DNA of 46,627 nt from the NCBI GenBank assembly GCA_000467715.1, contig AJFK01000069.1, positions 1-46,627 of the forward strand, in the 5' to 3' direction. Made by a program: the position numbers and the translations under genes. This document shows positions 2,782-38,700 of the stretch, piece after piece; position 1 is the stretch's first letter, and every line of letters starts with the position of its first letter. The stretch comes from Hysterium pulicare CBS 123377 (Eukaryota > Ascomycota > Dothideomycetes > Hysteriales > Hysteriaceae). The notes beneath the pieces are model-generated. The model had not been told where the DNA came from and did no database searches. It saw only the letters and a list, made by a program, of their open reading frames with translations.

Positions 2782-2817
2782 CACGTGACATCCCCTTTTT
2801 TCCTATGAAATATAAAA
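2782..2817 (+). promoter_or_regulatory. Array A module: CACGTG + TATAAAA
   Basis: CACGTG at 2782-2787 is followed by a C/T-rich spacer and TATAAAA at 2811-2817. An ATG lies at 2904, in an open frame of about 70 codons of unknown nature. Confidence 0.4.
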
Positions 2818-3239
2818 TGCAACCGTATTGCTTCTTCCTTTCTATTTCTCGCTACCTAAGTTAACGTTGTTGTCTAAATAAAAAGGATCCTCACTCTCAA
2901 ACCATGAGTCGCGGGGTCTTCGAGAGTTCAAAAGTCAAATGGTATTGGCCTTGCACGAGCACCAACGCCCGCTATCAAACTCAAAGAGAAGATTGCCTCA
3001 TGCGGGATCGCTGGGATCATGTGAATGGAAGGAGGCATTTGATGTGGAGTGGATATAACAATTCAGAGCCAACGCTGCACGGTGATGAAGGGAGAGCCAA
3101 TCGCTGCCATGGATGAGCTGATAAAGGTTCGAGCATGTTTAAGGAGTTCACTAATGAAATATGACGAAGAGCTTTAGTGCAGTTAGTCGTTCGAAACCTC
3201 TTGTATTCAGGATCTAATGGAAATACTTGTAGATCGATC

Positions 3240-3297
3240 CACGTGCAGCCAGAACCACGTGAGACGCATCCTAGTCTCTCTTCTAGCTCTATATAAA
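3240..3297 (+). promoter_or_regulatory. Array A module: double CACGTG + TATAAA
   Basis: Two E-boxes 16 bp apart (3240-3245 and 3256-3261) precede a CT-rich spacer and TATAAA at 3292-3297. The doubled box recurs at 4858/4875. Confidence 0.42.
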
Positions 3298-3787
3298 CCT
3301 CCAGGTTCCCTTTTCCGACATACACTACAAATTTGGATGACTCTGTTCAACAAGTAATTCCAAACAGGGTCTTGTTTGAACCATGTGCAGGCTTCTCATA
3401 TATAATGAAATGAATGTCCATAATTTTCGTATCACTTGCGAAGGCCACACCATGGGAACATTCTATCGCCTCTTCAACTCGATGAGGCTTGCTTTGAGCT
3501 CTGGTATCTGATGGGTCAAATCTGCCTGATCACTAAGTCTAGGAGATGCAAAATGGATAGAGAGTGTCTCAAATGTTGAGTCTGGGGATCAATCACCATC
3601 GTACGCGCCCATTATGTGGAGTGGGTAGTGGAAGTCGAGAGTGCGAGGAGAAGGGGTCGAAGACATCCCGTTGAACTTTTGGAGGCGAGAACAAAAATCA
3701 TCACTGTATGGAGGTGATGAAAAGAGCCAGTAGGATCAAGTTCTCACATCTGAGTGCCCTTAAAGTGCAAACATGTGCAGCAGAACC

Positions 3788-3827
3788 CACGTGAGACACA
3801 CCTTCTTCCCTTTTTGGCCTGTATAAA
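3788..3827 (+). promoter_or_regulatory. Array A module: CACGTG + TATAAA
   Basis: CACGTGAGAC at 3788 is followed by TATAAA at 3822-3827 and a C/T-rich leader with CACACCACTG near 3854. It is a typical fungal core promoter layout, but no sizeable gene follows. Confidence 0.42.
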
Positions 3828-4328
3828 GCCTCCAACTCCTCGCCCTTTCTCTCACACCACTGCAACTGCAGGCAACCCTTCAGCAAACCAGAAGTTAGTC
3901 AGTCCTACCCAAGTTAAACAGACGCGGAAGCACGGGCCATGGGTGCTTGGACTGCTCAAGTAGGTTATTACTTTCGATCTATGTGAAACAAACTTCTTGT
4001 TCTTCGAAATAGATGGGACTGACTTTTGTGAGGTGTGGATCTGATCACACGAAATCCGCAATCAAATCTCTGTGAGTTGGGCTTTGGTTTGTTGAGGATG
4101 TTTGGTACCGCTCAATCGAAGCCGGAGGGCACTAAGATGTGGGCTGGGTAGATAGAAAGGAGGTCTTCTAGATGGGGACCTTGCGAGTTTACTATCTCTA
4201 GACTAGGCTCTTTGTCTATATTGAAGTAGGCCATCGTTAATAAACGATGATTAGTACCATCACGGAGCATGGTTTCTTCGAGCAATTGAAAAAGATAATT
4301 ATGTCTTAGTTTACGTAATTAGGAGATC

Positions 4329-4359
4329 CACGTGGAACCCTTTTCTGCCTTGTATATAA
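4329..4359 (+). promoter_or_regulatory. Array A module: CACGTG + TATATAA
   Basis: CACGTG at 4329-4334 and TATATAA at 4353-4359 are followed by a leader with CACACCACTACC. The open stretch 4460-4738 lies just downstream. Confidence 0.42.
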
Positions 4360-4459
4360 CCTTCCTCTTCTCCTCCGCCATTACACACCACTACCAGGGG
4401 GTCAACTCTTCCACAGTGAAGAATACCGGCGAATGATGTCTGTGACTAGAACATACTGA

Positions 4460-4738
4460 TTTTCGGGGAACGATAGGACGTTCCAAAAAGGCGGAAGAAA
4501 TGCCAAATGGCTCTGTGGAGTCCCCGCTGGAATCAAGGGATTACTTGGAGGTCAAACCCAACGCATCCAAGGCGAAAAAACGGTTGGAGATGCCTTGGAT
4601 TTAGGAATTGATGTGGTCCAATCACCAACACCTCCGGTGATTGGCCATGTGGTTGTTCATAAATCAACAGCTGGCGATGACATGGGAGAAATTGAGTTAC
4701 TTCGCAATGGTTGTATGTTTCGATCGTGGCTCCGGTAG
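4460..4738 (+). pseudogene. ATG-less open stretch in array A unit
   Basis: Frame 2 is open for 92 codons between TGA (4457) and TAG (4736) and reads protein-like: WLCGVPAGIKGLLGG, then TVGDALDLGIDVVQSPTPPV and IGHVVVHKS. There is no ATG near its beginning, so a start would need an upstream exon. The GD-x4-LG-[IL]-DV pattern resembles a minus-strand frame in array B near 31.4 kb (CCGDIIIALGLDVRND), which hints at a shared ancestral coding core. No known family is recognised. It may be a decayed copy or a chance frame. Confidence 0.25.
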
Positions 4739-5293
4739 GTGGTTGATTCATTGTTCGGTGACGATTAGCAGTGTATCTAGGTGATGAGAATCCTGGCTCT
4801 TCGGCCTTGACATGCGATACCCGGAGCTCTCTCACCGTCTTCTATGAACTTAGAAACCACGTGAGACAGCTCAACACGTGAAAATTCACTACGCTCTTCT
4901 CCAAAAAACATTAAAGCCCTCATTCTCTCTCCTTCTTAACCTCACTACACCAATGGGCGCCCACATTCAATAGCATTAGGCAGTAGCGCCCCATGAGACC
5001 GCCGTGTCTGCTTTGGCGGCATGAAATCTGGAGCCATCGACAATTTAACCAATATCATAAGGAGAAATGCTGCCAAAACGCGAAAGAATTACAGGGAATG
5101 CGGGTTGGGGACGTTGGGATCTTGGGTTTGGTGTACAATCGATATCGACGCGATGTCTATTTCAGGAGTTGCCGTGCGGAGGGCGAGCGGTTATCTCTAG
5201 TCTCCCCTCTAGAGCTGCGTTATGATGATGAGCTTCTTCACCCTAAACAATACCAGCGCGGCAAATTTTCCAGCCAACGTATATCTCCCCATC

Positions 5294-5340
5294 CACGTGA
5301 TACCACCTTCCTTACTCCCTTCTCTTCCAAGATATAAAAA
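5294..5340 (+). promoter_or_regulatory. Array A module: CACGTG + TATAAAAA, best formed
   Basis: CACGTG at 5294-5299 is followed by a CT-rich spacer, TATAAAAA at 5333-5340 and a leader with CACCACACAC near 5366-5375. An ATG follows at 5401. This is the cleanest module of array A. Confidence 0.45.
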
Positions 5341-5400
5341 CCTTCCCTTGCCCTTCTACTACCCACCACACACTCTCCCCGGCCTTGCTCCGCAACCCAA

Positions 5401-5577
5401 ATGCAAGAGAGTAATATCTGCGGCTGTCTCCAAATCGCCCGTCTGTTCCTTGGGATGGGAAGCTTGGCTGCTGGGGTGGCAATACCTCCTTCCAAAAGCC
5501 TTCCATGTGTTGCGTCAACAACTGTCGCGACACAAGATTGGAATGTCTGTGGCTGTCTTCCAAAAATACTGAGATGA
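5401..5577 (+). CDS. Candidate 58-aa cysteine-containing peptide
   Basis: This ATG is the first one about 60 bp downstream of the TATA box at 5333, right after a C-rich leader, and opens a 58-codon frame. The peptide begins MQESNICGCLQIARLFLG, has a hydrophobic stretch (GSLAAGVAIPP) and ends NVCGCLPKILR. The element [IV]-C-G-C-L is present at both ends, so the frame may contain an internal duplication. There is no clear signal peptide and no known family. The 3' end has a relative at 38.1 kb in array B (CSSGLSKIL). It is the best small-gene candidate in array A, but nothing beyond promoter position and composition supports translation. Confidence 0.25.
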   Translation: MQESNICGCLQIARLFLGMGSLAAGVAIPPSKSLPCVASTTVATQDWNVCGCLPKILR

Positions 5578-5890
5578 CATTGCAATGGGAAGCTGGAGTG
5601 GGAGTATCTACCTACGCTCTGCCAGGCAATGGGTTGGGGTCAACAACGACTTCAACGCAAGAGACGAATGTCCGCTGGGTCGCAGAAAAGTGCAAGAGAA
5701 AGGTATCAATGGGAAGTCGAGCGCTGATATAAGCAACTGAAGTTTTCCAAAATGGGTGGTCTCGGCAGTGGCTGGAGTCTTGCTGCTTGCACTTCACGGC
5801 ACAAGCACCACACCGGTATGATAATCTCCACCACCAACCCAAAATAAAAATCCCTAGCGAGTGAACCCACAGAAGACGCTTCCAAACCGC

Positions 5891-17926: not shown

Positions 17927-18605
17927 TCAAATGCCACGCTCTACAGCCTCGGAATCATAGTAATTATGCATCTCCGAGCCTGCTTTCTCGTATCCGCACT
18001 TCACGTAGAATCCTTCCTTCTCGGGGGAACAGTCGAGGATTGTCTGAAATCGGTTGTTAGAATCTCAGCATCAATCGTAGGATGTTGGTGCAAACCTTGT
18101 AGCACCCAACTTGTTCTGCGATATGATCAAGTGCTTGAAGCAGTTTAACACCGAACTTTTTGCCCTGCTGATCCGCCTTAATAGCTATGTCCTCAATATG
18201 CCCTTGAACCCCTAATTTGTACAAGCTAGATGTGAATGTTAGCATTCTGACTAGGCGTTTGTTTAGAAAGTCCATATTTTGGGACACGGGAGATCAAAGT
18301 TGCGCTTACAACTTCCTTTCCACCATCAGAGTCCCAGTGCCTACGATTTTTGCCCCAGCTTCCCTCTTCTCATCCACTATCACCACAACAAAGTAGCTCC
18401 CGTTACACTTGTTCATGAAGTCATATCGTTCCGTCCATTGCTCTTCCGTGATATCACCGCAATACGCCAGGTCCCTTAGGACGTCTAAGTGGCCCTCTTT
18501 GAAATCGGAACGTTGCAGCGGTCGGAATTTGTAGCCTTCCGGGAGAGATTTTTGTACGGTTGGAGAGATCAGACTCTCTGCGAAGAGGGCAGATTCTGAT
18601 GCCAT
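17927..18605 (-). CDS. gna1: Glucosamine-6-phosphate N-acetyltransferase
   Basis: Model complement(17927..18043, 18096..18225, 18310..18605), 180 aa, the usual GNA1 length. The enzyme transfers acetyl from acetyl-CoA to glucosamine-6-phosphate, the second step of UDP-N-acetylglucosamine synthesis for chitin, N-glycans and GPI anchors. Exon 1 encodes FRPLQRSDFKEGHLDVL and the strand GTLMVERKF (spliced across intron 1). Exon 2 has LGVQGHIEDIAIK followed by the acetyl-CoA loop DQQGKKFG and LLQALD. Exon 3 gives TILDCSPEKEGFYVKCGYEK, then a Met-His-Asn-Tyr-Tyr tail matching the GNA1 C-terminus. Intron 2 uses the weaker donor GTTTGC. An essential housekeeping gene in fungi; it appears intact. Confidence 0.95.
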
Positions 18606-19644
18606 AGCGGATACAGGTTATGGGGAGCTGTGTAGTGAGGTGGGGGTGAATGGAGAAGTAAAGAAAACGAAAGTTGGATGAAGAATTCGCAGACGTAAGC
18701 AAAGTATGATGCCGAATGACTGCCGCAATCCAAATTTGAAAAGGGTCTACGTATGCAGAATGCTACAAGTATATTACTTCGATTCGGTTGTTCAACTAGT
18801 GCTCGTCGACTAGAGCCTAAAAGTAAGTCAAAATCCTTCACGCCGAAAGCATCAGATGTAGAATACAATTGCGTTCGCCAGCCTTGCTACTGCCAACTGA
18901 GGATATGATTTGGTCCTGATAGTACTCAAAAGATGGCGGATCTCAAGTCGGAGACGTGGAAGAATCAGGTTGGAGACCTTGGAACAATGGCCCGTGCGCA
19001 CACGGCGGCCTAGATGGCGTTAAACCGTCCTCATCCTCTCCACCTCCGATCTTGCACGTCGAACATCCGCATATGACATTCATCACGGCCGCGCTTAACG
19101 CGCTTCCTCATCTGCACCATCATAGCGGACTCATGCGAGCTCCTCATCATCTAGTCAATGGACAAGAAGTGTGCCCACCGTTATGTTCAATCTGCCCGGG
19201 AGATGACTGGATCATCAGCATTTTCGAAGCTTTGCATGAACCTCTGCATTGCCATAAATCTATTACTAAAGATTGGAGAGGCTTTGACAAATCCTGCGCT
19301 GCAATTTCGACATGGATTTGGGCAAGTTGATGATGACTTACGACAGGCTACGAAAGTGAGCACCAGAGACCAGCAAAAAGAGTTTCGACCACCGCAATGT
19401 CTAATTTGTAGTTGGTTTCGGATGAGCATTACATCACCAAGTTGTACTGCCAAATCTGGTACCAAATGTAGGTACCCTGGCTCTCGGGGATAGGTGGGAC
19501 ATTTTATCCCTTTTTGGTATCGCAGTCAACGTTGACTATCTGAACAACAACTTGGCATCGGGACTACAACTTATGAATACTTTATCAAGTATTTCAGAAC
19601 TACTGAATCATCTTTGAAGACATTGAATCTGATTTTGAGGGAAA
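18606..19644. other. Intergenic region, about 1 kb
   Basis: 5' flank of gna1 followed by unassigned sequence. Open frames on both strands around 18956-19493 have no recognised domain and overlap each other. No promoter module of the array type is seen. Confidence 0.5.
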
Positions 19645-20805
19645 ATGCCTTCTCTTACGAGAACTCTGCCCGCTTCTTGGTATTGTAGTTCCCCCTTATA
19701 TCAGCTTGAGCGACGAGCAGTCTTCCTTAAGGTATTTGTTGGCATTTGAAGGGACCCCATGAGTTTAAATACTGGCTAATAATTCTCAGGCTTGGTATTT
19801 ACTGGGGCCGGTCACCCGATTTCAAGTTATAGGGGAGAAAATCGAGTATGAAATCGCTCAAGTCAAATTGATCGCCTCTCGCAACTCCTCGGATCTCAAA
19901 GATATCAAGGTTTACAGAGAAGATGTCCGTTGATTCTGATCTTATCCATGTTGTGCCGGGGCTGATTCAAAAAGGGCTCCGAGTTCAGAACTCATATGAC
20001 GGAGACTGGGCTGTTGTTTTCCACTATTTCAGACGACGCCCCATCATTCGACGAATTCTTTCCAGATCTTAAGCCTTTATTAGCTACGGTTGACTTCACT
20101 AAGCTTCCCTATCGGCGCAGCATTGAATACGATGGCAACTTCAACTGGAAAACCATGTAACTGCTAGCCTGATGCATCCCATGAGGAAAGCTAATTTGAC
20201 CTGAATAGGGTTGACGGCTATCAAGAGTGCCTTCACTGTCAATATACACACCCTTCATTTTCGATCTACTACCCTCCAACGTTTTACACGGTTTACAACC
20301 ACAAGAACTTTTCTCGACATATTGCTGATCCGAAGAAAACAGACGATGGCTTGTTTCTCTATTTCTTCCCCAACTGTACCTTGAACGTTTACGGCGGCGG
20401 TATGACCTCTTTCCGAGTATGTCCGACTGAAAAGCCCGGCGTCACACGGATGGAGTTCGACTATTACCACCATGAATCCGGAGATAATTTTGAACAATAC
20501 TTCAAATTCGTCAGACAAGTGGCTTTAGAAGACTATGAACTGTGCGAGAAAGCCCAGGAAAATCTCGAGAAAGGCATCTACTTTGAAGGGATCCTGAACC
20601 CAATCAAGGAAAACGGGGTCGAATGTGAGTGCTTGATAGTTAAAAAGAGAAGGATTCTGACCCCTTGATGCTAGTCTATCAACAACGCGTCCTGGATCTT
20701 GTTTGCGAGCAACACGCTGCAGAAAGAAACCCCAAATCCAAGAATGAGACCTTGGCTAGCGGCCACGCTGTACTTTCTTGTCTAGTTGAGCCTGCAATTT
20801 CGTGA
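19645..20805 (+). pseudogene. Ring-hydroxylating/choline-monooxygenase-like gene, interrupted and without a Rieske centre
   Basis: Exon 1 (19645..19731) reads MPSLTRTLPASWYCSSPLYQ and, after a 58-nt intron, continues AWYLLGPVTRFQVIGEKIEY, the N-terminus of fungal Rieske-oxygenase alpha-like proteins, until TGA at 19931. Coding resumes in another frame from about 19980 (THMTETGLLFSTISDDAPSF), splices at 20157/20208 to VDGYQECLHCQYTH, and after an intron 20625-20674 ends at 20805. The D/E-x2-H-x4-H iron-ligand pattern in DGYQECLHCQYTH and the C-terminal YGGGMTSFRVCPTE block are well kept. No C-x-H...C-x2-H Rieske motif exists anywhere between the ends. No good GT-AG intron bridges the TGA and frame change, so I call it broken. 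Whether the Rieske part was lost here or is absent in this subfamily is open. Confidence 0.65.
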
Positions 20806-21398
20806 ACGGGGAACTGGGTACTCGTCCGATACTAATGCGCAATTACGCCAATCAAATGCACTGGGTTATGTTCTGAAAAGTTCTTTGTGGTGTTTCGGGG
20901 GTTTTGATGGTTGTTGTCCATCTTCCTAGCGCCACCTCCAACCTTAGTCGGCCTCATCGTTCCTTGACTGGCGCGAACCAAACTGCATGCGGGAAACATT
21001 TCCCTAACAAGGTAATCCGCATCACAACCTCTATCATGCTGCCCATAACTCCTCCACTTTAAGATTCGTCGTATGGCGAATCGATGCTATCATCACCAGA
21101 GCAAAATCATGGCAATGTTGCGATCGCACCACTCCTCGTTCGCCAGGTCCTTGTCGCGATATCTATTTGCGGAATCTATCTGGACCGGATTGCCCTAGCG
21201 AGCTATCTGCCCTGGTTAAGTCACGAAGCACCTGCAATTAACCTTTCTCTTGATTTCATGAAATGCTCCACAGCACAGTTTGCGTGACTTTTCTATTTCT
21301 GAACCATCCTCGCTCTTCAGTAATCGTGATCTGACGGGTCATCGCGTCTCAATAGTTATCATTAGTTCACAGCCAGCACTCAATTAACCCCAGCTACC
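20806..21398. other. Intergenic stretch between two Rieske-type genes
   Basis: No gene supported; a 67-codon frame at 21084-21287 has no recognisable features. It contains the promoter of the downstream Rieske gene. Confidence 0.5.
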
Positions 21399-22732
21399 AT
21401 GGCACCATTTGCAGAAGTTCCTATTTTCTCCAGTCATTACACGTCTACTACGGAAGTCTCGAAAGAGCCGGACCTCCTTGAAGGTTGGTGGACTGATGAG
21501 AAGATTTTCTCTTTGGAGAGGCGGGCCATATTCAGCAAGGTAGTAACTCTCAATTCGCTCACAGACATTGCTGATAGGTCAGATATGGTTATGCGTATCG
21601 CACCGCAGCCGATTTACTAAACCTGGAGACTATATTTCAATCAGCATCGCCGGCTTTCCCATTCTCATCATCCTTGGCAAAGACCACATAGCACGTGCTT
21701 TTCATAATGTCTGCAGACACCGCGCCTATACAATTACTAAAAAGGCAGCGGGATCCTCCCTCGTCCTTGGCTGCCGGTATCATGGCTGGAGCTATGATAC
21801 TGGAGGCAACCTTGTGAAGGCTCCTCAATTCGATGGCATTGAGGGGTTCGATAAGTCGCAGAATGGTCTCTTCAAAGTTCGCACCTGCACTGATCGAGGT
21901 GGTTTCATCCATATCAACCTTGATGCTGGCAACGTAGCACATGCTCCGGATTGTGAAGAAATTGTCGGCTTCGCAGTGCAACATGATATTGGCCCTCACA
22001 GCAAGTGGCTTAATAGTTGGCAATTCGATGGTAGTTTCAATTGGAAAGTTGCAGGTATGTCAGTTCGTAAACTGGCTGATCTCCGGAATCTCTATTAACG
22101 ATCTTCATGTTGCTAATTTCATCAGTTCAGGGTCTTGATCCAGAACTGCCCCGTCCAGCTTCCCGCAGCAATCTTCTATCTATTCTCACATACCTTGAGG
22201 TCTTCCGTGATGCCGAGCTATCCCTCGGAAAGAGCCATAGCCTTACCATCTCCCCGCTAACGGTCGTTAAAAGCCTGTCAAATTCACCAGTATGGCTAAC
22301 TATGACTGTGCTCCCTACCTCTTCAAGCAAGAACACGATCAAATGCGACGTATACACAACGTTGCGATCGCACCTTCCGCGGCAGGCACAACTTGAATCA
22401 TTACAGGGCGAGATTCAGTACTTCATCACCGCACTTGAACAGAACTATCTGACACTTAAGACCATCCCACTAAAGAAGGAACCACCAACTTTGTCATTTC
22501 TCAAAGCACATATCAGATTAGAAAAAATAGCTGGCAGACAGATCTTTCCCGGGAGACAAGAGAATGGACGGAGCGAGGCTTGCTGGAAGGCTGAGAAGAG
22601 TAAGATCGTTCCTTCACCACATCTTAGTTACAGGTGAATAGAGCTAACATGACCGCAGTCTGCAAAGAACTGGACGAGATGGCCGGAGTGGGGACTACGG
22701 TAGGCGGGGGTGTACGCACTCTAGAGTGGTGA
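21399..22732 (+). CDS. Rieske [2Fe-2S] domain protein without a mononuclear iron site
   Basis: Model join(21399..21539, 21583..22054, 22126..22599, 22659..22732), 386 aa. The first intron is only 43 nt; the second uses the AG at 22125 because the next AG (22130) would give an immediate stop. The Rieske domain spans about residues 48-150 with C91-x-H93-x17-C111-x2-H114 (HNVCRHRAY and GCRYHGWSYD). After FNWKVAV the C-terminal half (LEVFRDAELSLG, LTMTVLPTSSSKNTIKCDVY, FLKAHIRLEKIAG, CKELDEMAG) keeps the alpha-subunit-like fold region, but no H-x4-H iron ligand pair is present. From memory a Pezizomycotina group of Rieske proteins shares this layout and the AHIRLEK block, so the gene is probably intact. 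The role is unknown, with electron transfer or an orphan oxygenase component as inferences. Confidence 0.82.
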
Positions 22733-23022
22733 GCATGCCAAAGGTTCATGCATCAGCTAAGTCATTAGATCTCAGACATAAGTCTATGAGATGTTGTACA
22801 TCGCGTGAATAGCCTCATCTACTAAGTAATATGCATTTCTGCTTCCAAATCCGCCCAGCGCTTGTTGGACCCACCAGGCGAAGTTCTGCAACCACTCACA
22901 TCTTAGCCTCATGACGCACCAATCAACATTCGCTACGTTGAGCAAAGCCCATGCACCCAGCAAAACCACCTGACTCCTACCTCGAAACATCCTAGGACAG
23001 AACAACAAACACTCAAACACCC

Positions 23023-24394
23023 ATGGCAGAAGTTCCAGCTCCTCCAGAAACATACCGAGGTCGACTCGCTCAGTTTCAGATTCTCGAAGCATCACGGCAT
23101 GCTCTGATCGAAGTAAACCTCTCATACGACTTTCCCTGAGTCTACGACGAAGGTATTAAACTTCTTTATTTCAAGCCTTCTGACATATTCTTCTCCGCTA
23201 GGAACTCCTCGACAAACTCGAGAAAACAGAAGCAAAACTCCAACAATCTGAACTCGATCTCCAAAGCGAGCAGAATGTTCGACGAAGACTACAATCCGAA
23301 GTTGTTGAAGCAAAAGAGAAAGAAGCTACCTGGGTCGAGAAGGCGGTATGAACAAACCTCTCTCTCCACTTTCAACTCATGATCTAATATCACATAGTCC
23401 AAACGCCCGTACGCCATAGTCCTGATAGACGCCGACGCAGAAGGCTTCACGGTATTCGCAACCCAGCCCTCCCTTACCATCCCCCTTCCATCCTCCCCTG
23501 CTAACACTTCACCCAGTTCCTCGACAAATTCATAACGAAGCGCGAAAAAGGCGGCGAAGCAGCCGCCGATGAACTCCTCGTGAAATCGCGCGAATACCTG
23601 CGTCCTCTCTACCCGGACGCCGATAAACTCGACATCTTAGTTCGGATCTACGCCAACCAGGAAGGGATGGCAAATATGCTAGTTCGAGAGGGCAAGATAC
23701 GGAATCTAGGGCAATTGAGGGCTTTTTGGACAGGGTTTAGTTCGAGGATGCCTGGGTTTGATTTTGTAGATACGGGGGTTGGGAAGGAGGGGGGAGCTGG
23801 GAGGAAAGTTAGAGGTAAGAGTTTTTGATTCCTCCATGCTATTTCCCCTAGTCGTTACTCTTAGCATAGGTGGAGTATGTAGATAGAGTTGCTGGGATAA
23901 CAAGGCTGACATCGTTTCGTTCGACAGAGAACCTCCATTTCCACGCCCACTCTCTCCAAATCCGCCACATCCTCCTCGCAACCTCACCCACCAACATCCC
24001 ACCCCCCTTCCTACAAAGCCTCCCCCTCCCCCTCACCTCCCTGACCCTCCTCGAATCCTTCCCCCTCCCCGTCCCGCTAAAATCCCTCCCCGGCCTCCTG
24101 ACCACAAAACTCCCCTCCCTCTTCCTGCCTCCGCCACCTCCACCTCCCAAATCAAGTGGAGGATCGAGGACGGGGCGACCGCAGTTGCAGTTGAGTCAGC
24201 AGGAGGATAGAGATGGGGGCAGTACTTGGCTTGTTATCAGGCCGGAACGCAGTAAGAGTCAGGGGGCGGGCGGGAGTGCGGGCGGGAGAGATGGGGATGA
24301 TGGGGATAGTAGTTTGAGTATTAGTATTGGGCCGGATAATACGGTTAGTTTTGGGAGGGGGAATGAGGGGGGACGGAGGAGGATTATGGGATGA
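23023..24394 (+). CDS. Coiled-coil protein with DUF7923-like (NYN-type) domain, no zinc finger
   Basis: Model join(23023..23112, 23202..23345, 23398..23451, 23517..23814, 23928..24394), 350 aa; the five exons sum to a multiple of three. Residues about 20-80 form a charged coiled coil (LLDKLEKTEAKLQQSELDLQ). Then KRPYAIVLIDADAEGF opens a domain seen in fungal CCCH zinc-finger proteins, continuing with LYPDADKLDILVRIYANQEG, FDFVDTGVGKE and HAHSLQIRHILLATSP. The Asp residues in LIDADAEGF and FVDTG sit where a NYN/PIN-like nuclease fold would place acidic residues, so RNA-related activity is an inference. The usual C-terminal CCCH fingers are absent; instead there is a Pro-rich then Gly/Ser/Arg-rich tail. 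The last intron (113 nt) is the longest. The start has good context and no upstream in-frame ATG nearby. Confidence 0.78.
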
Positions 24395-29369: not shown

Positions 29370-29539
29370 GCGCTTTCCTCGTGACTAAGCTTCAGTGCTT
29401 ACATAATGAATAACATTATCCTGGTCTTCAATGGATATAAAAGCTTCAATACCTTCACTTATCTTCCTACCTCACATTCTAAGCTCCGACCTCCTGGAGA
29501 GTTATTTGGAGGCAATTGAATCGAGAAAAAGAAACTGGT

Positions 29540-29812
29540 ATGCTTCGCTGCAAACCATATTCGACATACCAGGAATGGCTCTCGGGCGCTGCGCTCCGGG
29601 CTATCAAGGCAGCCAAGAATCCTTGTCTAGGGGGAGTGGCTTGGTTTGGGTCGAACGAAATCAAAGTGAAGCACTATGGAGTGGAGTTTGGAGTTTGGAG
29701 GTCAGAGGTTGGAGGTTGTGGAAAAAGAACTGGTTTTGGAGTTTTGGGTTTTGAGAGTGATGATACGGAAGAGAACCTTGCGGAGATGGTTGTTGGTATT
29801 TTTGAGTGGTGA
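29540..29812 (+). CDS. Candidate 90-aa ORF in array B
   Basis: The first ATG after the TATA box at 29436 in this frame opens 90 codons ending in a Gly/Phe-rich stretch (GKRTGFGVLGFESDD) and an acidic C-terminus (ENLAEMVVGIFEW). No known family, no signal peptide. Presence of a promoter-like box upstream is the only support, and the frame may be a decayed copy or chance. Confidence 0.2.
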   Translation: MLRCKPYSTYQEWLSGAALRAIKAAKNPCLGGVAWFGSNEIKVKHYGVEFGVWRSEVGGCGKRTGFGVLGFESDDTEENLAEMVVGIFEW

Positions 29813-30124
29813 TGTTCATTAGCAATATCTACTTCACTGATATGGATGAACAGGCAACCGCGTATAAGCTCATAACCGCAGACTGCTGTCTCCATCCCCA
29901 GCGTCCCACATGTTCTCTGTGATCACCTCAAGATTAACTTCGTCCCACAGGGCCCACGGCTCCCACCACCGTTAGCTTTACCAACCTTTTGATCCCATTG
30001 CTCTTTTGTTTGTACAAGTGCGCTACCCGAACATCGAGGCCATCATCATACTCCTCCTTTCAACTTGAAGGGTCTGACGACCGCGGAGATCCTGGTGTGG
30101 AGAAAGAAAAGGCAATCCTAGGGA

Positions 30125-30223
30125 TTTTTATATCCTTCAAGAGTCCAGATCGAGGCGAGCAATATCACGTTACTAGTGCTTACTAAGACTAGGGTCTCGA
30201 TGCTTACTTGGAGCGATATAAAA
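30125..30223. promoter_or_regulatory. Array B bidirectional module near 30.17 kb
   Basis: TTTTTATAT at 30125-30133 (TATA on minus), ATCACGTTA at about 30164-30172 and TATAAAA at 30217-30223 (plus). Confidence 0.4.
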
Positions 30224-30312
30224 TCTCTCCTTGTCTGCGGCTCTGGACTCTTGATTCCCTACACACAGCTCCTTCTTTCGAGGGAGACAACACCACCAAA
30301 ATCACTCAGTTC

Positions 30313-30726
30313 ATGGGATTGTCTTGGTGTTCTAAAAGGATGGCGAGTTCCGATGGCTCGTTGCTCATTTTACGAAACAGTTTATTGACATGCCTCTTTG
30401 GTAGCTCTCCAAAAGATTGTTCTAGGGCCGGGAATGTTGGTGTGCAGAGACCTGAACCAAAAGAGGTGGAAATCAACACACATGGTTCTGGAGCCGGGGA
30501 CTTGGATCAATCACCCAGTCAAATCAGAAGAAAATTGGGATGGTATGGAGAGGTCCCTAAAGTTAAGTCGCAGATACGAAGTTGGATTCTATCCGAGCAA
30601 CAGTCTTCACCAGCATCAAAAATAATGATCCCCACCACCACTTCGAAGCTCTTCCGCCAGCACACCATGAAGGAGTCTTCTGCATCTCCATGGCTTCTCC
30701 CGAGTCCCGAGCATGATACCTGGTAG
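30313..30726 (+). CDS. Candidate 137-aa ORF in array B
   Basis: The longest ATG-initiated plus-strand frame in array B, starting about 95 bp after the TATA box at 30217. It begins MGLSWCSKRMASSDGSLL and contains VGVQRPEPKEVEIN, which I align by eye with broken frames in other units (PEPNEVITLPGG near 31.2 kb, FQNPETIELNV near 38.13 kb). The second half is Ser- and Lys-rich. No known domain. It may be the least decayed copy of the unit gene, or only a chance frame. Confidence 0.25.
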   Translation: MGLSWCSKRMASSDGSLLILRNSLLTCLFGSSPKDCSRAGNVGVQRPEPKEVEINTHGSGAGDLDQSPSQIRRKLGWYGEVPKVKSQIRSWILSEQQSSPASKIMIPTTTSKLFRQHTMKESSASPWLLPSPEHDTW

Positions 30727-30929
30727 CACCGTGAGTTTGAACAAGACATAACCGGGATGCGCGTGTCTTGTTTGGGCGAACACAAACTCACCCCATCCGC
30801 CGACGCCATTGAATCTTTTGGTCTCGGAACATCGACGCAACCTATCTTCAGATTTTGGTGTTAGAATTAGAAGATTGAGTTCCGGAGGTGGTGAGTGAGT
30901 TGAGGTAGTTTAGAATTGAGAGGCTTTCA

Positions 30930-31001
30930 TAATGCAGAAGGAGAAGAAGAGGAGTGGGATCACGTGCGCTGAAGACTGCTTAGGGTCATTGCTTTTATAA
31001 A
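30930..31001. promoter_or_regulatory. Array B module at 30.96 kb
   Basis: CACGTG at 30961-30966, TATAAA at 30996-31001 on plus, and a weaker minus-direction CATTATGAAAG at about 30925-30935, followed on minus by CTCTCAATT, which also follows the TATA of the next module. Confidence 0.42.
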
Positions 31002-31268
31002 GGTGGCTTCATACCAAACATGGAGGCGTCGGACGCTCTGTCGAAAGAATATTCGATCAAGGCAAATTACCACGCTCTATCAATGTCTTGGAGTTCCAGA
31101 ACTTGATTTTCTCCAGCGCTATGTCAAGAAAAAGTGACTGGAATATCTCTTCGATGGTTTTTCAAAAAGACTGTCCTTGAAGCCGGCATGTTTGGTGCTT
31201 CGGACCTGAGCCAAATGAGGTTATCACCCTTCCTGGTGGTCTCGGAGTTAGGTGTATGGTCCGCATAA

Positions 31269-31502
31269 TCATACAGAAAGAAAAACGGAATCATGGGAGG
31301 GCAAGAACGTTCCTTTTTCGAAGGTGATTTCTTCTGGAATGTTATTGGTTTTACTGATGCTATTCAGCAGAAGATAGGGGAGAAATGCACCATCATTTCG
31401 AACATCTAAACCGAGAGCTATAATAATGTCTCCACAGCACCGTACATAACTCGAGTCCCCAGCATGGGCCAAATAATCCCTCTCTAGTTGAACAAACATC
31501 AT
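31269..31502 (-). CDS. Candidate 77-aa minus-strand ORF in array B
   Basis: Lies about 150 bp downstream of the minus TATA at 31653-31659. It begins MMFVQLERDYLAHAGDSS and contains CCGDIIIALGLDVRNDG, then ends with a hydrophilic tail. The AH-x-G...YV and I-I-A-x-G-L-D-V pieces have counterparts in the minus frames near 30.75 kb (HAHPGYVLFKLTVLPG) and 36.4 kb (NTIMVAVDFGPGFS). No known family; may be decayed. Confidence 0.22.
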   Translation of the reverse strand: MMFVQLERDYLAHAGDSSYVRCCGDIIIALGLDVRNDGAFLPYLLLNSISKTNNIPEEITFEKGTFLPSHDSVFLSV

Positions 31503-31652
31503 GCCATTCACATCTTGCTAACACGAAGACGACCCGCACCTTGGAGCAAGAAACTCTAAGCTTCTCGGAGCATAAACCTTTTCTGGTTCCCCTTCTTGGT
31601 TCAGATAGTCCGAATTTTCGAGGTGTTCTGAGTTGGTTTGAAATTGAGAGAC

Positions 31653-31698
31653 TTTTATAGGTGATGATGAAAAAGGAAAGGGAGAGTGAGATCACGTG
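31653..31698 (-). promoter_or_regulatory. Array B module at 31.69 kb, minus-directed
   Basis: CACGTG at 31693-31698 and, 34 bp downstream on minus, TATAAAA (31653-31659), then CTCTCAATTTC. Confidence 0.45.
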
Positions 31699-32140
31699 CT
31701 CCCTTCCATATTACCTATTGGTGTGATATCCAGGAGCCATGGCCTCCGGATATACGGAAGAGCTGAAGAAACGGCACGCTGTAGCTTCCTAGGGCTTGGA
31801 CAACAATAAATTCCGTCGTGAGAATACTTCTAATGATTGGCTCCACTAGTAGTGAAGATCATCAGTACGTTCTTACTTTGAAGATCAATTCATCACCATC
31901 AAGCTCTCATGTCTTCAACACCTCCCCAGTTTCTCCCAAGCCCGCAGCATGATTAGTAGCTCAGCCATATATTAAACGAGACATTGGTTCGTCTTCTGCC
32001 CATTGATTTGGAGCAGGAATTTGTACTATAGAGTTTGCTGAACCCGAAAGTTTGTCTCTCAGAACAATTTCTGATGTTTTCCGCTATTTGGTTTGAATCC
32101 GAAAGGTGTCTTGTGAATGAATTGGGTTCACATTGAGGCT

Positions 32141-32251
32141 TTTTATATAGTGCGAAGAGAAGTGAGTAAGCTCACGTGCCATCCGATCATTTCTTTGACT
32201 ACTTTTCCATTACTGTTACATCCACCTTGGTCTCCCCATTCTGCATATAAG
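32141..32251. promoter_or_regulatory. Array B bidirectional module at 32.17 kb
   Basis: TTTTATATAG at 32141-32150 (TATA on minus), CACGTG at 32173-32178, CATATAAG with TATAAG at 32246-32251 on plus. It is only 480 bp from the previous box. Confidence 0.45.
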
Positions 32252-32897
32252 AACCATTATATATTTTCTCCTCCGCCCCACCGAACCATCACCTCGCACA
32301 TTTGACATTAAGTCAAAAGTCGGCAAAAGAGGGCATGATGGGCTTTGAGTTTCTTGGGAGAGATAAACTAGGAGTGTTTCCTTCAGATGTTTTTCTCTAG
32401 AAACTTACTCACAATCTTCCTATGAGTGTCGCTTGACCAGAACCCTACAAGGAAAACCTAATATGTCTCCGCCTTTGGCGTGGGGAAACGGCAAAGGGGA
32501 CGCCTAGTGAGATGCTGGGGCTTCGAGGACTTGGGAATGCGGGCAAACTCAGCTGTGAGAGTTTCGTGATGAAGAAGCTTCTGAGTCTTCATATTGACGA
32601 TCTATTTTACTAAGTACTCAATGGGAAGATGCTACCGTTCATCGGCGTAGCGAAACCCGAGGTAGATGAAGCAGGCTTCTCTTTCACTCTCTAAATCTCA
32701 TCCCCACACCTAACCATAGCCTGATTTATCTCTAGAGTTTGAACCCTGCTTATGCTTAACTCAACAGAGTACGCAACAGCCATGTACACTTGACTTTCCA
32801 GCGTCTGGAAGCCATAGAAGTAGGCATCTGAGCCCATTAAAGAGATATTTAGCTCCGCTATGAGTAGAGAACATGCTTTAATCGATGATAGAGGACC

Positions 32898-32973
32898 TTT
32901 TATAATTCGGGGAAAAAGGAGACCTTTGGACTCACGTGCCCCCAATAACCCTTTCCTAGCTTAGTCATATAAG
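32898..32973. promoter_or_regulatory. Array B bidirectional module at 32.93 kb
   Basis: TTTTATA at 32898-32904 (minus TATA), CACGTG at 32933-32938, CATATAAG with TATAAG at 32968-32973 (plus). Box-to-TATA spacing is about 30 bp on both sides. Confidence 0.48.
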
Positions 32974-34991
32974 TTCACTGAGTTACTGTGGCCTTCGGAA
33001 CTTACACATGAATAGCTACCAGCTCCTACAATCTTCTTGTCTTCACATTCAATTACCCCTTCAACTTGAACGGTCATTTGGCTCAAAAGTAGAAGTCGTT
33101 GCGTATGATGCCTTCTCGCTCGGGCGGATCAAGAATACATCAACGACGAACTCGTGGTTTCTTGTCTATAACCATCGTGCTCCCTTTCCTATGAGTGGCG
33201 CTCGGCCGAAAAGAAATCCATCAAAAGATTTGTTTCTTAGGCATTAGAGCATAGTGCGAAGCCAAGGAAATGCATTGCGGGTTTTAAGAATAAGTGAAGG
33301 AGGGGAGATATACCTCGGAATTCCATGAATGGTGATGAACAACTACTCAAGAGATAATGAGGATGCCTCTCAAACATAATGTTCATCACTGATCCATGTG
33401 AGGAATCTCCGCAGAGTCGTGAATGAACCAGATGCCGCAGCCAGCCACCTCCCTTCCAGATTTCTAATTCCCGCGGGCCCGACTACAGACATGAACCATA
33501 CTCGTCCTCGAATTTTTACGCAAGAAAGCGCAAAAACACCCGAGTGCTGAGAAAACTCATGTGACGGAGAGCCATAGTGAGGTATATTGTCGACGTATTG
33601 TCGCCCATGTGAAGGTCAATTGGCAGGAATTTGATGGAAAAAAGGTCAAACTCCGCAGTGTGTGTAGAAGTCATTTGCTCGCAGATGAGAAAGATTTATA
33701 TGTTGTAAGTATCAAAGGCAGATATCACGTGCCTCCTCTCTCTTTCCCTGGCCGCTACCCAAGCTTAGTCACTACCCTCGAACGCCTCAGTTGCTCCGAT
33801 TCCACATATGAAACCTCCTCTCTCCTTCCAATTCATGTCTCCACTTTCAACTTTCAATAGAAGTGGATGGCAGCGTGAACCAAATGGAACCAATGATGAC
33901 TTTAATGGCTCTTCTCTCGTCAACAAGCAACGATGATAGGCAAGCATGAGAGTTTCAATCAAAATGCTACTATCGGAATGTGCCCGAGCTTGGCTTGGTT
34001 TAGAACCGCACCTCAGCTTGGTAGACTGTGGCTGGTGGATATATAAATGCTCTCGACCCTCCTATTTTCCTCCACTACAGTCTACGCATGTAGTGAAGAC
34101 CTTAGTGGTATGAAAACGGAAACTTGAAGCATCTTATGTCTTCTTCTTCGCCAAAGCAGGCCAAGAGCCAGGGCATGTCCTTCTGGGATTCAGCGCTTTT
34201 GGAGGGTTTCCTCCAGGTGCTCCCGGTGTGGCCAAAATGATGCGGAATCGACGATCATGTCTCCGCTGGCCCATTTACTAAAGACAGACGTCACCGCAAA
34301 ATTGCCGGGCTGGAGTTGAAACTTGGAAGAGATTTTGTAGTGGATGTGGAAGAGATGAAGATCTCCATGGCTAGTTCTTGATGGTGTTCTTCACGAACCT
34401 CCAGCTTGGGGTAAATTGACATAATATGCAGAACCTGCCACTCCTCAAACTAAATCCCATTCATCCCTCTGCCATTAAAACGACACCAGCCGGTTTTATT
34501 TGGAAAACCACAGCGCCGACACCCGCACATCGGCTTGTCGATGGTGAGTTGTATTTTCGGCTATGTCTTCGATCGTGTGTGGGAGAAAATTGAGTATATC
34601 TCAACTAGGAGATTCATAATAAGAATTGGCAATTTGGAGAAACGTCCTTCGAAGTGGGATTGCAACGATGGTTAACTGTGGCGAGTATTAATACTGCTAA
34701 TCATGCCAGCGCATTCAATCGAGCTGGACTGGGAACGTGAAGGGGAGAGTTTCGCACTAGCATCCCTTAGTAATGTTCTTCACTAAACATTCAGCGCGGG
34801 GAAAATCGACGCGCCATTATCTTCCTTACTTCAGGTCCGCTCATCCCACTTTTATAGTTTCTGCCTAACGTGTCTTTTAGGACGGCAACCACTACAAACT
34901 CCGTACATGGTGGCGTTGGCGCTGGAATTATTGAGTGGCCTTGTAAGTTTTCTATCAAGATGGAGACAAAAGAACGGAAGAGCTACGTGGA

Positions 34992-35084
34992 TTTATAAGA
35001 CATAAGAAGAGCCAAAGGATTAGTAAACCATCCCGATGACATAAGGTGCATGATGAGGAGAAGGCGACTTAATAGATATAAATA
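34992..35084. promoter_or_regulatory. Array B bidirectional module, TGACATAA type, 35.04 kb
   Basis: TTTATA at 34992-34997 (minus TATA), GATTAGTAA at 35018-35026, TGACATAA at 35037-35044, TATAAATA at 35077-35084 (plus). Confidence 0.5.
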
Positions 35085-35781
35085 GCTCTCTCACTTCATC
35101 TCTTTCCTCTCCACGAACGCCCTTCCAAGGGGGAGTGCCACAATCTCAGGTAGCCAGCCCCAAGCATGTTGCGGGCCCAGAAAATGTTGTGGTTCTCCGG
35201 GATCCGCGAAGTCATCCTCGTCCCTGTTGATAACTCATGCGGCCCGTTGTGCTGAATTAAAAGCCAAACCAGAGGACTTTAATGTGTCGGCTGACACCAA
35301 AACCAGAGGTCTCATTAAACGAATGGTCGGTTTGAGTCCCAGCTCCTGAAGAGAATAGGTTAGGGGATGTTCTACACCAAAATGTGGCGATGATCAGCTG
35401 TATTAGGTTCTTGTTGAGCTAATTCTTGTATCGAGTCGGATAGAGCACTACAAATGAAAGAATCTGTTCACCACAAGTTCAAAGAAATGCACTCCACTAA
35501 AATCTAGCATGCTGGAACGGAACATAGTCTCTTTACCACCCATTCTCTTCTTCCAGACTTCCATTTGTCACCCTCCCAGGGCTATTCTTGTACTTCGCTT
35601 TGGTTTGGGCATTTGAAGAGCAACCCCGCCAGCACCAACCACATTGAAGGTAGGCATTTGTCCTCTTGAACGGACTTGAAAGGCCCGGTGCCGTTTCTGT
35701 GGATCGAAAGGGGAGAAGGAAGGAAGAGCTACTCAGCTTTGTAGAACCTGATATGAGCTAGAAAATCACTAAGCAGCCCGA

Positions 35782-35830
35782 TGACATAAGCTAGCCCAGG
35801 ACGGAGAACCATGTCCAAGGAATATAAAAA
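35782..35830 (+). promoter_or_regulatory. Array B module, TGACATAA type, 35.78 kb
   Basis: GATGACATAA with TGACATAA at 35782-35789 and TATAAAAA at 35823-35830. The downstream leader has CTCCACACC. Confidence 0.5.
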
Positions 35831-36502
35831 CTCCACACCATCCTCTCTTCAACTTCCACAGTCTGTCCCTCGGCGACTAGACAATAAGAACATCGAATTC
35901 AATGAATGGCCAATGCCATGGTTTCTTGCTTGCCAAAAACAATGTATCTGCATCCACATGTTCTCTGGTGTTCAACACGGACCACCTACAGAATGCATGT
36001 GTCCTTGTTGAGACCATTTTGTTGCAAGAAAATTGCAGAATGTGATTCCAATATCATTCGCTCTCTAGCGTGCATGATGCGCACTGGGAGATTTGATAGA
36101 GTAAAATCACCTTAGACCATCTTAACGGGGCAAACGCGGCGATGGTTAGCTATGTCAGATACTGCGACTCCTTACTTTGATTTTCTTTTCAGCACGGAAA
36201 GTAGTGATGAATTGGAGACTCTCACTGGTGGGAATTGATGATGTTCATCAGCAAAAATCCAAGCATGCTAACTTAGCATGACTCTATCATAGATATTCCA
36301 TCCTCCTTATTGCTGAAACCGGGGCCAAAGTCCACGGCCACCATGATGGTGTTCTGTGTTTCTGAAATCAATTTAGCCAGGCCAAAACCAAACTCAGGAG
36401 CACATAGTGTATGCGCGAGTATCAGTTTTGGAAACGGACTATCTGCCGCTGCATCGTGTTTGACTGCCCAAAGTACTTTCCAAGGAAGAAGGCGCACGAG
36501 AA

Positions 36503-36597
36503 TTTATAGCCATTTCCCCAAGAACCCATGGGCTTACTAACGTCCCCAATGACATAATCCCATCAACTAGCATAGTCTCAATCAAACCGTTATAAAA
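36503..36597. promoter_or_regulatory. Array B bidirectional module, TGACATAA type, 36.55 kb
   Basis: TTTATA at 36503-36508 (minus TATA), TGACATAA at 36550-36557, TATAAAA at 36591-36597 (plus). Confidence 0.5.
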
Positions 36598-37180
36598 TCT
36601 TTCCTCCCCCCTTCTTCTTGAACTCTCTACAGTCATCTGCAACTCTGGGGTGAACACGGGAGACCACAAAAACAAGGAAAATCAAGAACCTATGAGTTCA
36701 GCTATGTCAGTACGAACAGAAGACAGAACCATGGTTCTGCGAGTCTGGGCGTTCATACAATACGGTTCTGCTCGCCCATGTGTGTATTCGCCTTCGGATC
36801 TGGTCCTTAGGTCGGAGAGGGTATTTCCAGCGCTCGGATGGCTAGTCTTGTCGGAGCCGCTCATCTGCTTGAATAGGTGACATATTTCCGGAGTTTGAAT
36901 ATGTGATGAACATCATCAGTATCATGAGCGTATGATTATGGTTAGCGACCTGGATCAAACCGCATTCCTTAGGTTTGCTCCACTAGTTCTCTCTTTCTCT
37001 CTCTTCCCATAGATAGGTAAGGAGATCGGCTTTTGAACGACAATGCCCACAACATAGCCCATTGAAGCGCTCGCTAGGATATATGGCTGGGGATAGAGCG
37101 TTGCTTCCATAAACTGTGCAGACAAAGTATCGAACTAATATCTTTCATACACTCTAGAAGGAGGAGAAGTGAGAAACTAA

Positions 37181-37246
37181 GATTAGTAATGCCTTCGATG
37201 ACATAAAGAGATCAATGCCTTGGACGAGGTCCAGCGAATATAAAAA
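37181..37246 (+). promoter_or_regulatory. Array B module, TGACATAA type, 37.20 kb
   Basis: GATTAGTAA at 37181-37189, TGACATAA at 37199-37206, TATAAAAA at 37239-37246. Order and spacing match the 35.04-kb module. Confidence 0.5.
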
Positions 37247-37885
37247 CCTATTCCACCCTCTTCTCCCTTTCCGCTCACTACAACATCAGCATATGGGTTA
37301 GATACCGGGATAAACATAGTATAAATGTCCTTCGTCTAGCCAATCACTTTGGAAAGGCCCGCGTATGTTGCTCTGGGTGTGCCAACTCGCAAGATGACCC
37401 AGTTGAATGTCTTCCTTTGATCCAACAAGCGACCCGAAAAACTTTTATGTCCTGGGATCTGCGGCCAGAATGAAGTGAAGAGGAAATTCATGATATCAAG
37501 ACATGCCTCAGGTAAAGGCAGTTGGAGGGGTTTGGTGGGTATGAGAGTGTTAGGAGGGAAGAATAGAGGTGATGGGTATCAGAAGTTCCTGATGAAACAC
37601 TTGGTAAGAGAGAAAGGTGGAGGTGGTTAGCATTTTTTCTCAGTACCCTCAATCACCGCACTCAGCAGCATACCCCTCCTACACCCAGAATCCCTACCAT
37701 CACCAGCATCTTCCATCCTGTCCCAACCCTAGAGTCCCAACCACATCGCTCCTAATTCTTTCCGCAATTTTTAGACAATAACGAGTTCGCACACGAACAC
37801 ATCAGATCAATTATCTCTATCTTTGGAACGCCCCCGAAAGACTGGTCCTGCGGAGCGAAGGCCAGAAGAACCCTGACGGAGAAGA

Positions 37886-37973
37886 TTTTATAGACATGAT
37901 GGAGAGAGGATGATTACTAAGTGGCTTCATAGTTTCCCTTAGTCATCCTGATCCGATCGATTGAATATAAAAA
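37886..37973. promoter_or_regulatory. Array B bidirectional module, degenerate centre, 37.94 kb
   Basis: TTTTATAGACATGA at 37886-37899 (minus TATA), GATTACTAA near 37912, TATAAAAA at 37966-37973 (plus). The TGACATAA box is not intact here. Confidence 0.42.
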
Positions 37974-38611
37974 CCTGTTGCACATTCCGCTTCTTGCTCA
38001 CTACAATTCTGCAATTTGAAAAGCAGAGGACGGGAACATCACAACGTAGATGCGCAATGGATCATGTCGTCTGTCTTGCTCTTGCCAAAAACTGGGCCCT
38101 TTTGGTCACATGTTCTTCTGGGCTTTCCAAAATCCTGAAACAATCGAGTTGAATGTGTCTTCCTTGCTTCAAACATATACCAATGCCAGTACGATGTCTG
38201 GGTGTCCAGCGCGGGCCTTGATCAAATCGGTGAGATGGGGTGGTGAGATGGGTCCGGCTGGGAGAAGCTGGGAGAGTTCCGCGGGTCAAGATATCAGAGG
38301 AGAAGTGGTGATGCTGATAATCATCAGTTTATCCAAGATGATAAGTCCAAATCTTCGGAAGGGGAAGGAATAGTGAAGTCACTCATTATACATCCTCAAT
38401 ACTATTCATCACAACCATATCCACAAGCCCTGTTCTCGAATTGCCCAAACTCTATTGTGTTTCCCCTACTTTTCCCCGAAAGTTGCCCTTTGATTTTGAA
38501 CACCAGCGACGACTCCCACAGGCACATCGTTATCTACAAAGCCATTGTCTGGGACGACTCCCAAGGCTTTGTCTTGTGAATTATCGGCAAGGGGACTATG
38601 GCGCAGTAGAT

Positions 38612-38671
38612 TTTATAGACATGAAGAAGCGGAAGCGGATTAGTAAGAGGGTCGATGAAATAATGACGTCG
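38612..38671 (-). promoter_or_regulatory. Last array B module, minus-directed, 38.66 kb
   Basis: TTTTATAGACATGA from 38612 (minus TATA, same wording as the 37.89-kb module), GATTAGTAA at 38639-38647 and TGACGTC (CRE-like) at 38665-38671. Confidence 0.45.
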
Positions 38672-38700
38672 AGTGCGAGTAGGTGGTGAGATGAGGACAT

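Follow-up and report, generated by a model that had tools for sequence, protein, structure and literature searches.

The systems described so far that lie closest to the arrays treated here, rows of promoter-like modules in Hysterium pulicare CBS 123377, are the type I Piwi-interacting RNA (piRNA; 21U-RNA) gene clusters of Caenorhabditis elegans, the dicer-independent small interfering RNA (disiRNA) loci of Neurospora crassa, roadblock termination in budding yeast and the divergent histone gene promoters of Aspergillus. The stretch analysed, called the window below, is an entire contig (AJFK01000069.1; C58) of 46,627 bp in a genome assembly of 37.2 Mb. The Ruby motif of the 21U-RNA genes has the core CTGTTTCA, disiRNA loci consist of dispersed genes overlapped by antisense, and in a roadblock of the Reb1 type a protein-bound site beyond short noncoding units stops the polymerase. 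The nematode clusters carry the Ruby motif upstream (PMC4015492), the Neurospora loci undergo converging transcription by RNA polymerase II (Pol II) (PMC3764098), the yeast roadblocks are set by general regulatory factors such as Reb1 (PMC6314782), and the Aspergillus histone genes have divergent promoters (PMC6900853).

The arrays of the window resemble the 21U-RNA clusters, in sequence layout only, as many short clustered units with their own small promoters, in which the promoter is kept and the body is free. They stand, however, in a different kingdom and have E-box, bZIP-like sites and TATA box, predicted RNAs of about 300 nt and a downstream dyad; the Ruby core was absent from the window, where 2.0 occurrences were expected by chance. 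With the disiRNA loci they have in common converging units in the gene-rich DNA of a filamentous fungus, here by geometry only (14 of 23 converging pairs have their TATA boxes 581-741 bp apart), but they differ in forming regular arrays of short, dedicated units whose converging ends have a dyad between them. A putative protein-bound site past short noncoding units would stop the polymerase as in the Reb1 roadblock, whereas the site here is a 19-bp dyad that recurs singly in each unit or converging pair. The modules are compact, bidirectional and fungal like the Aspergillus histone promoters, but those serve conserved coding genes and the units here are arrayed and without detectable protein.

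Judged from the sequence, the array at 29.40-38.66 kb of the window is probably one of many arrays across the genome in which noncoding Pol II mini-genes lie in clusters under shared regulation, with a protein-bound dyad between them; such mini-genes probably number in the hundreds. No counterpart was found in the literature at the level of titles and abstracts, and the layout, with a kept start signal, often a shared end marker and a differing middle, appears unusual. If the units are expressed, they would form a large gene class that would escape annotation based on proteins and homology, since frame and sequence are both unconserved and the class is visible only via promoter and dyad; the questions then raised would concern the RNA produced, the binding partner of the dyad and the reason for divergent bodies beside constant signals.

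The initial annotation had claimed evenly spaced promoter-like modules in this region, and about 14 were indeed recovered between 29.40 and 38.66 kb, mostly 650-795 bp apart; one interval measures about 480 bp, and between 33.7 and 35.0 kb the spacing is looser.

Array B, 29400..38660, unstranded: about 14 promoter modules, mostly divergent, alternating with dyads
Module 1, 29400..29441, plus: TTACATAA box, TATAAAA at 29436; plus strand only
Module 2, 30125..30223, unstranded: TATA 30132 (minus), TTACTAA-type site, TATA 30217 (plus)
Module 3, 30924..30966, minus: CACGTG 30961, TATGAAAG 30931 (minus)
Module 4, 31653..31698, minus: CACGTG 31693, TATA 31659 (minus)
Module 5, 32141..32265, unstranded: TATA 32147 (minus), CACGTG 32173, TATA 32258 (plus)
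Module 6, 32898..32973, unstranded: TATA 32904 (minus), CACGTG 32933, weak TATAAG 32968 (plus)
Module 7, 33694..33731, minus: CACGTG 33726, TATA 33700 (minus)
Module 8, 34040..34100, plus: TATATAAA 34040, start region CCACTACA; no copy of any of the seven listed boxes within 75 bp
Module 9, 34991..35083, unstranded: TATA 34997 (minus), TGACATAA 35037, TATA 35077 (plus)
Module 10, 35737..35829, unstranded: weak TACAAAG 35743 (minus), TGACATAA 35782, TATA 35823 (plus)
Module 11, 36502..36597, unstranded: TATA 36508 (minus), TGACATAA 36550, TATA 36591 (plus)
Module 12, 37143..37245, unstranded: TATGAAAG 37149 (minus), TGACATAA 37199, TATA 37239 (plus)
Module 13, 37886..37972, unstranded: TATA 37892 (minus), TTACTAA/TTAGTCA-type sites, TATA 37966 (plus)
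Module 14, 38611..38660, minus: TATA 38617 (minus), GATGAAATAA, TTACTAA-type site

CACGTG was located at 30961, 31693, 32173, 32933 and 33726 and TGACATAA at 34417, 35037, 35782, 36550 and 37199, the copy at 34417 lacking a convincing partner TATA box. The proposed flanking by outward TATA boxes on either side could be named in seven modules (30132/30217, 32147/32258, 34997/35077, 35743/35823, 36508/36591, 37149/37239, 37892/37966); the left box at 35743 is a weak TACAAAG, and that at 37149 is TATGAAAG. TTTTATA occurred nine times in the window, eight of them inside 29,370-38,700. The claim of a kept leader needs correcting. CTCTCAATT was present at just two units, both on the minus strand (30914-30922 and 31642-31650; 4 matches in the whole window against 0.76 expected). 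CACTACA/CTCTACA stood at the expected start of four plus units (34073, 36625, 37276, 37999), and the window contained 20 copies of the motif CWCTACA where 8.9 were expected.

A promoter matrix of 56 columns around the TATA box, trained on units of six other stretches on other contigs without overlap with the window, gave 15 matches at score 12 in 29,370-38,700, whereas shuffles that preserve dinucleotides gave 0.38 on average and never more than 1 (n = 60). In this comparison with chance, which the initial annotation had called for, the modules thus exceeded chance. At score 15, 10 matches were obtained against 0.03 in shuffles, and the reversed array B sequence gave 2 and 0 matches at the two scores. 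The density was 16.1 matches per 10 kb in array B, 4.7 in 5.7-29 kb (11 matches, 7 on reversal) and 1.3 in 39-46.6 kb (1 match, 1 on reversal). A second array, absent from the initial annotation, was located near the opposite contig end, where the region 2.2-5.45 kb held 6 matrix matches against 0.18 in shuffles.

Array A, 2782..5660, plus: six one-directional units, CACGTG with TATA at 2811, 3292, 3822, 4353, 4909 (ATTAAAG) and 5333

CACTACA/CTCTACA was also present at the expected start of two array A units (3323, 4943).

Modules of this kind are spread through the genome. The pattern CACGTG-N-TATAWA-N-CACTACA matched 6 times against 0 for its reversal, a second pattern 29 times against 0, and a third 47 times, at about 41 distinct places, against 1. 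The first sample consisted of seven stretches of up to 10 kb, five around matches of the first pattern (the sixth match lies in the window) and two from other places; five of the seven held at least three modules, with two in L006 and one in L011. Including 20 further stretches sampled after the second pattern, the set comprised 28 stretches, namely the window and L005-L031 (27 pieces, some from one contig). At score 18 these gave 148 module matches against 11 reversed, and 21 of the 28 contained at least three modules against 1 of 28 in the reversed control, which is supplied because the counts overlap the matrix training; a laxer scan at score 11 gave 263 against 91 reversed. One 10-kb flank of a single array (L032) held one module match. 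As the third pattern was present in 5 of the 112 units not used for choosing stretches, dividing 41 by 5/112 puts the family at roughly 900 units (plausible range about 400-2,700), on the assumption that the third-pattern places not inspected also represent units and that the arrays sampled are representative.

Relics of mobile elements, for example MITE-like (miniature inverted-repeat transposable element) or SINE-like (short interspersed nuclear element) copies, would also account for the multiplicity of units, and 4 of the 7 first-sampled stretches reached a contig end (C14, C95, C459, C102; raw count). We regard this origin as very unlikely, because a 3.7-kb array stretch matched only itself in the genome at E values up to 1, in a search that skips very common words, and the window units showed no relation to transfer RNA (tRNA) or Rfam families. 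Rfam gave no match in the window at the gathering threshold and none up to E 1 in 29.3-38.8 kb. Tandem-repeat calling found nothing in 29.4-38.7 kb, and the DNA repeats there were short.

Unit anatomy was examined in a study set of 142 units of sufficient length scoring at least 18. The typical order was an upstream box, a TATA box, a CT-rich start region, often with CACTACA-type ends about 30-45 nt past the TATA box, a variable body of about 300 nt and often the dyad. The boxes varied among units between CACGTG, TGACATAA/TTATGTCA, TTACTAA and TTAGTCA; we take CACGTG to be an E-box for basic helix-loop-helix (bHLH) proteins, and TTACTAA, TTAGTCA and TTATGTCA to be sites like those of basic leucine zipper (bZIP) proteins. 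Neighbours on the same strand were 400-850 bp apart in 71 of 104 cases, and the divergent TATA-TATA distance was 66-120 bp in 18 of 22.

The region +230 to +430 was searched for motifs without supervision, which yielded the dyad, GGTGATGA-N3-TCATCACC, of 19 bp, with a log-likelihood of 1343 against 888 for one shuffle. At a score of at least 11 it was detected in 87 of the 142 units against 5.7 in shuffles. The spacer was 3 in 73 of the 87, 0 in 13 and 6 in one, with 1, 2, 4 and 5 never best, under a scoring that favoured spacer 3. When 119 units were scanned from -300 to +780 at site score 11, the dyads peaked at +260 to +420, with 9, 17, 15 and 9 per 40-nt bin against 0 to 2.4 in controls. 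The window contained 14 matches with up to three mismatches at 12 distinct places against 2.9 expected, a number reached in none of 100 shuffles, and 11 of them, at 9 places, lay inside the two arrays. Genome-wide, 22 sites with one mismatch were found against 7 for the reversed pattern. Eleven dyad sites were reached from both converging units, a sharing that is partly built in because the search ranges of such units overlap. The dyads between converging array B units, which are an addition to the initial annotation, are listed here with those after single units.

Dyad, 29808..29823, unstranded: reached from 29436 (plus) and 30132 (minus)
Weak dyad (score 11), 30621..30639, unstranded: reached from 30217 (plus) and 30931 (minus)
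Dyad, 34377..34395, unstranded: downstream of 34042 (plus)
Weak dyad (score 11.1), 35363..35378, unstranded: reached from 35077 (plus) and 35743 (minus)
Dyad, 36234..36252, unstranded: reached from 35823 (plus) and 36508 (minus)
Dyad, 36902..36920, unstranded: reached from 36591 (plus) and 37149 (minus)
Weak dyad (score 11), 37568..37586, unstranded: reached from 37239 (plus) and 37892 (minus)
Dyad, 38307..38325, unstranded: reached from 37966 (plus) and 38617 (minus)
Dyad, 5224..5242, unstranded: after unit 4909 (plus) of array A

The two half-sites varied independently (16 complementary deviations against 18.9 expected, 76 distinct sites), pointing to a DNA site for a dimer that is presumably bound by a protein. 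An RNA hairpin at the dyad was rejected, since the halves do not covary. A dyad behaving as a DNA dimer site, in alternation with the boxes, would likewise suit arrays that act as DNA, their clustered sites titrating factors or organising chromatin while transcription is incidental. This is quite unlikely to be the explanation, because a core promoter and strand-specific body features past the start are not expected of pure binding-site arrays. On their sense strand the bodies carried YCAAAA and, some 20 nt downstream, ATGKYTTGG. This motif is enriched between +60 and about +260, with 110 sense against 25 antisense occurrences at +60 to +220 in 119 units. The bodies also showed a keto/amino alternation that repeats about every 50 nt, with autocorrelations of -0.036, +0.014 and -0.014 at lags 27, 47 and near 75; its spectrum peaked at 52 nt with a value of 2.68 (1.09 in window sequence outside the arrays), and in the 20 window units alone the peak lay at 44 nt.

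The bodies could instead be the coding parts of very small, very fast-evolving effector-like protein genes, too diverged to be recognised. The TATA box and CT-rich start would fit such genes, as would a rise of ATG about 90 nt after the TATA box (124 in the +80 bin and roughly 70-95 in later bins, many in the context ATG-G/T-CT), sense open runs exceeding both dinucleotide and trinucleotide shuffles, and one neighbour pair (L022 3787, minus, and 4387, minus) whose translations aligned over 24 residues. If these longer open runs are set aside, a coding reading found no support in open reading frames (ORFs), frame-wise stops, translated pair alignments, trinucleotide shuffles or splice-donor signals. 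The longest ORF starting with ATG within 29.4-38.7 kb had 137 codons, and ORFs from the 143 early ATGs at +76 to +105 were shorter than 40 codons in 97 cases. Stops showed no frame preference in the first 19 codons after these ATGs (88, 77 and 99 per frame) and no frame-specific avoidance against trinucleotide-preserving shuffles (2.1, 3.6 and 5.6 per frame against 2.2, 3.7 and 5.5), and TGG spacing in the bodies had no period of three. Translated similarity was no better in sense than in antisense: scores of at least 45 were reached by 12 of 483 same-contig pairs in sense and 24 in antisense, and by 11 of 1129 sampled other pairs in sense and 31 in antisense. GTA was depleted in the units (279 against 516 expected), and thus no splice-donor signal was present. 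As indels between neighbours also did not come in threes, we consider small-protein genes improbable.

Conservation was judged throughout among paralogues of one genome. Units from the same contig were distantly homologous, with a mean local score of 56.9 against 46.6 reversed, and other unit pairs scored 52.8 against 46.4. Tandem amplification, suggested by the initial annotation, is therefore probably right for the origin of neighbouring units, which differed by many indels; blastn between non-overlapping bodies found few matches, leaving them mostly unalignable. The same homology is what decayed tandem duplicates would leave, that is, an old amplified gene pair whose coding parts became pseudogenes while its promoters linger. 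This fate, which had been proposed for a divergent gene pair, is unlikely to have produced the arrays. Decay predicts equal loss of all parts, whereas promoter, spacing and dyad repeat over many contigs; array A is one-directional, no relict or kept frame was found, and simple decay would not leave recurring modules in 21 of 28 stretches and dyads in 87 of 142 units.

The evidence for RNA stems in the bodies appears modest and mixed. In their favour, the mean fold z of the 142 units was -0.42 in sense and -0.09 in antisense, pair consensus folds had z scores of -0.36 +/- 0.13 in sense and +0.13 +/- 0.14 in antisense (60 of 373 qualifying pairs), and 64 six-pair stems were kept in the homologue against 26.3 +/- 5.2 in column shuffles and 36 in antisense (64 of 199 pairs). 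In the pair L019/L024, two adjacent hairpins of 6 and 7 pairs kept 13 of 13 pairs with three double changes and one change of G-C to G-U; slid versions had no double change. Among the group consensus folds, that of L013 was strong (z -4.2, three sequences) and that of L015 reached z -5.3 with an energy of only -0.8, while the other ten groups had no structure or an undefined one. A C/D-box identity, considered from TGATGA, found no support in Rfam.

Several observations weigh against noncoding mini-genes as the explanation of the arrays. Most stretches were picked by the same boxes that were later counted, the 142-unit set includes some false positives as judged by the reversed control, and 21 of the 41 third-pattern places lie in stretches inspected, with the other 20 outside. 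Seven of the 28 stretches (L006, L011, L017, L018, L019, L021, L028) held fewer than three modules, so that some pattern matches are single promoters, and 55 of the 142 units had no dyad at score 11. The longest sense open run averaged 71.6 codons against 66.3 in trinucleotide shuffles (z 4.5) and 58.7-59.5 in dinucleotide shuffles, the antisense value being 65.1 against 64.7; we read the excess as a clustering of stops at the dyad. As for structure, the evidence, the mean fold z included, is modest; stems with a double change numbered 21 against 11.7 +/- 5.3, which is not decisive, and 11 of 12 within-array alignments were almost without a consensus fold (energy 0 to -2.3). The covariation in L019/L024 was equalled in 62 of 500 shuffles, and its antisense strand retained no fewer stems (6 against 4). 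The idea of a helix anchored on the motif of the bodies was rejected, as pairing within units was no better than between units; no covarying stem with that motif was found (best z 3.5, lowest -3.9, of 5886), and a helix grid test over 85 windows gave weak values in either direction, with -2.6 as the best and +3.9 as the most opposed.

If the units are noncoding mini-genes, a divergent or single promoter, with E-box (CACGTG) and/or bZIP-like sites (TTACTAA, TTAGTCA, TTATGTCA), TATA box and CT-rich start, would begin an RNA of about 250-350 nt, at whose expected end the dyad lies, between converging units in divergent arrays. A factor bound to the dyad may halt or insulate the polymerase from both sides and so keep the dense units from mutual read-through. 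Common boxes would tie the units to common regulators, making their joint switching-on likely, and the bodies would be free in sequence while retaining a periodic composition and, perhaps, some stems in the RNA. The initial annotation's suggestion of short noncoding transcripts under one regulator agrees with the shared boxes, TATA, start region, dyad and absent coding signal, except that the box types suggest several kinds of factor instead of one.

Our guess is that the product is a pool of structured RNAs or the precursors of diverse small RNAs for the RNA interference (RNAi) machinery. The genome encodes RNAi genes, with four loci over the Piwi cut-off and four RNA-dependent RNA polymerase (RdRP) loci, so small-RNA precursors and structured RNAs are both possible. 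Rather unlikely, if conceivable, is a dispersed hypervariable repertoire of hundreds to perhaps more than 1,000 mini-genes with insulating dyads that would feed an RNA-guided system like that of the nematode 21U-RNA genes, evolved independently. The RdRP matches at C233 20659-22449 and C366 7665-9632, from a six-frame search that ignored introns, contain one and two internal TAA codons, for which introns or damage are possible.

The gene content is that of a fungus, and the genes flanking the arrays are ordinary (DUF3405, GST-like, OPT transporter, alpha/beta hydrolase and BRO1); a 5.8S pattern had no match. At 16500-24000 the window has about 7 kb poor in ORFs (largest ATG ORF 176 codons) with few module matches, and a strong lone promoter-matrix match lies at 1426 (minus; 21.5 out of sample) within a short minus ORF at 1354-1668. 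Elsewhere, two promoters about 17 kb apart on C180 (L017 4887-4937 and L018 4941-4990) share the composite CACGTGATG-N2-TTATGTCA and upstream sequence, and their bodies look different. Many head-to-tail copies of AGGTAAGTC, a splice-donor-like word, were observed at L019 about 5390-5620 (plus), downstream of a CACGTG-TTATGTCA-TATA promoter. An Rfam scan of 13 of the 28 loci gave two matches. One is an Afu_182/snR10-type H/ACA RNA gene at L022 6631-6825 (minus; 111.7 bits), with the nearest array unit about 1.7 kb off and no array-type promoter beside it among the listed matrix matches. The other is a tRNA-Ile (anticodon tat) at L007 5333-5405 (plus), found by ARAGORN and Rfam (31.8 bits) and located in the 3' part, at about +294 to +362, of the unit L007 5040 (plus).

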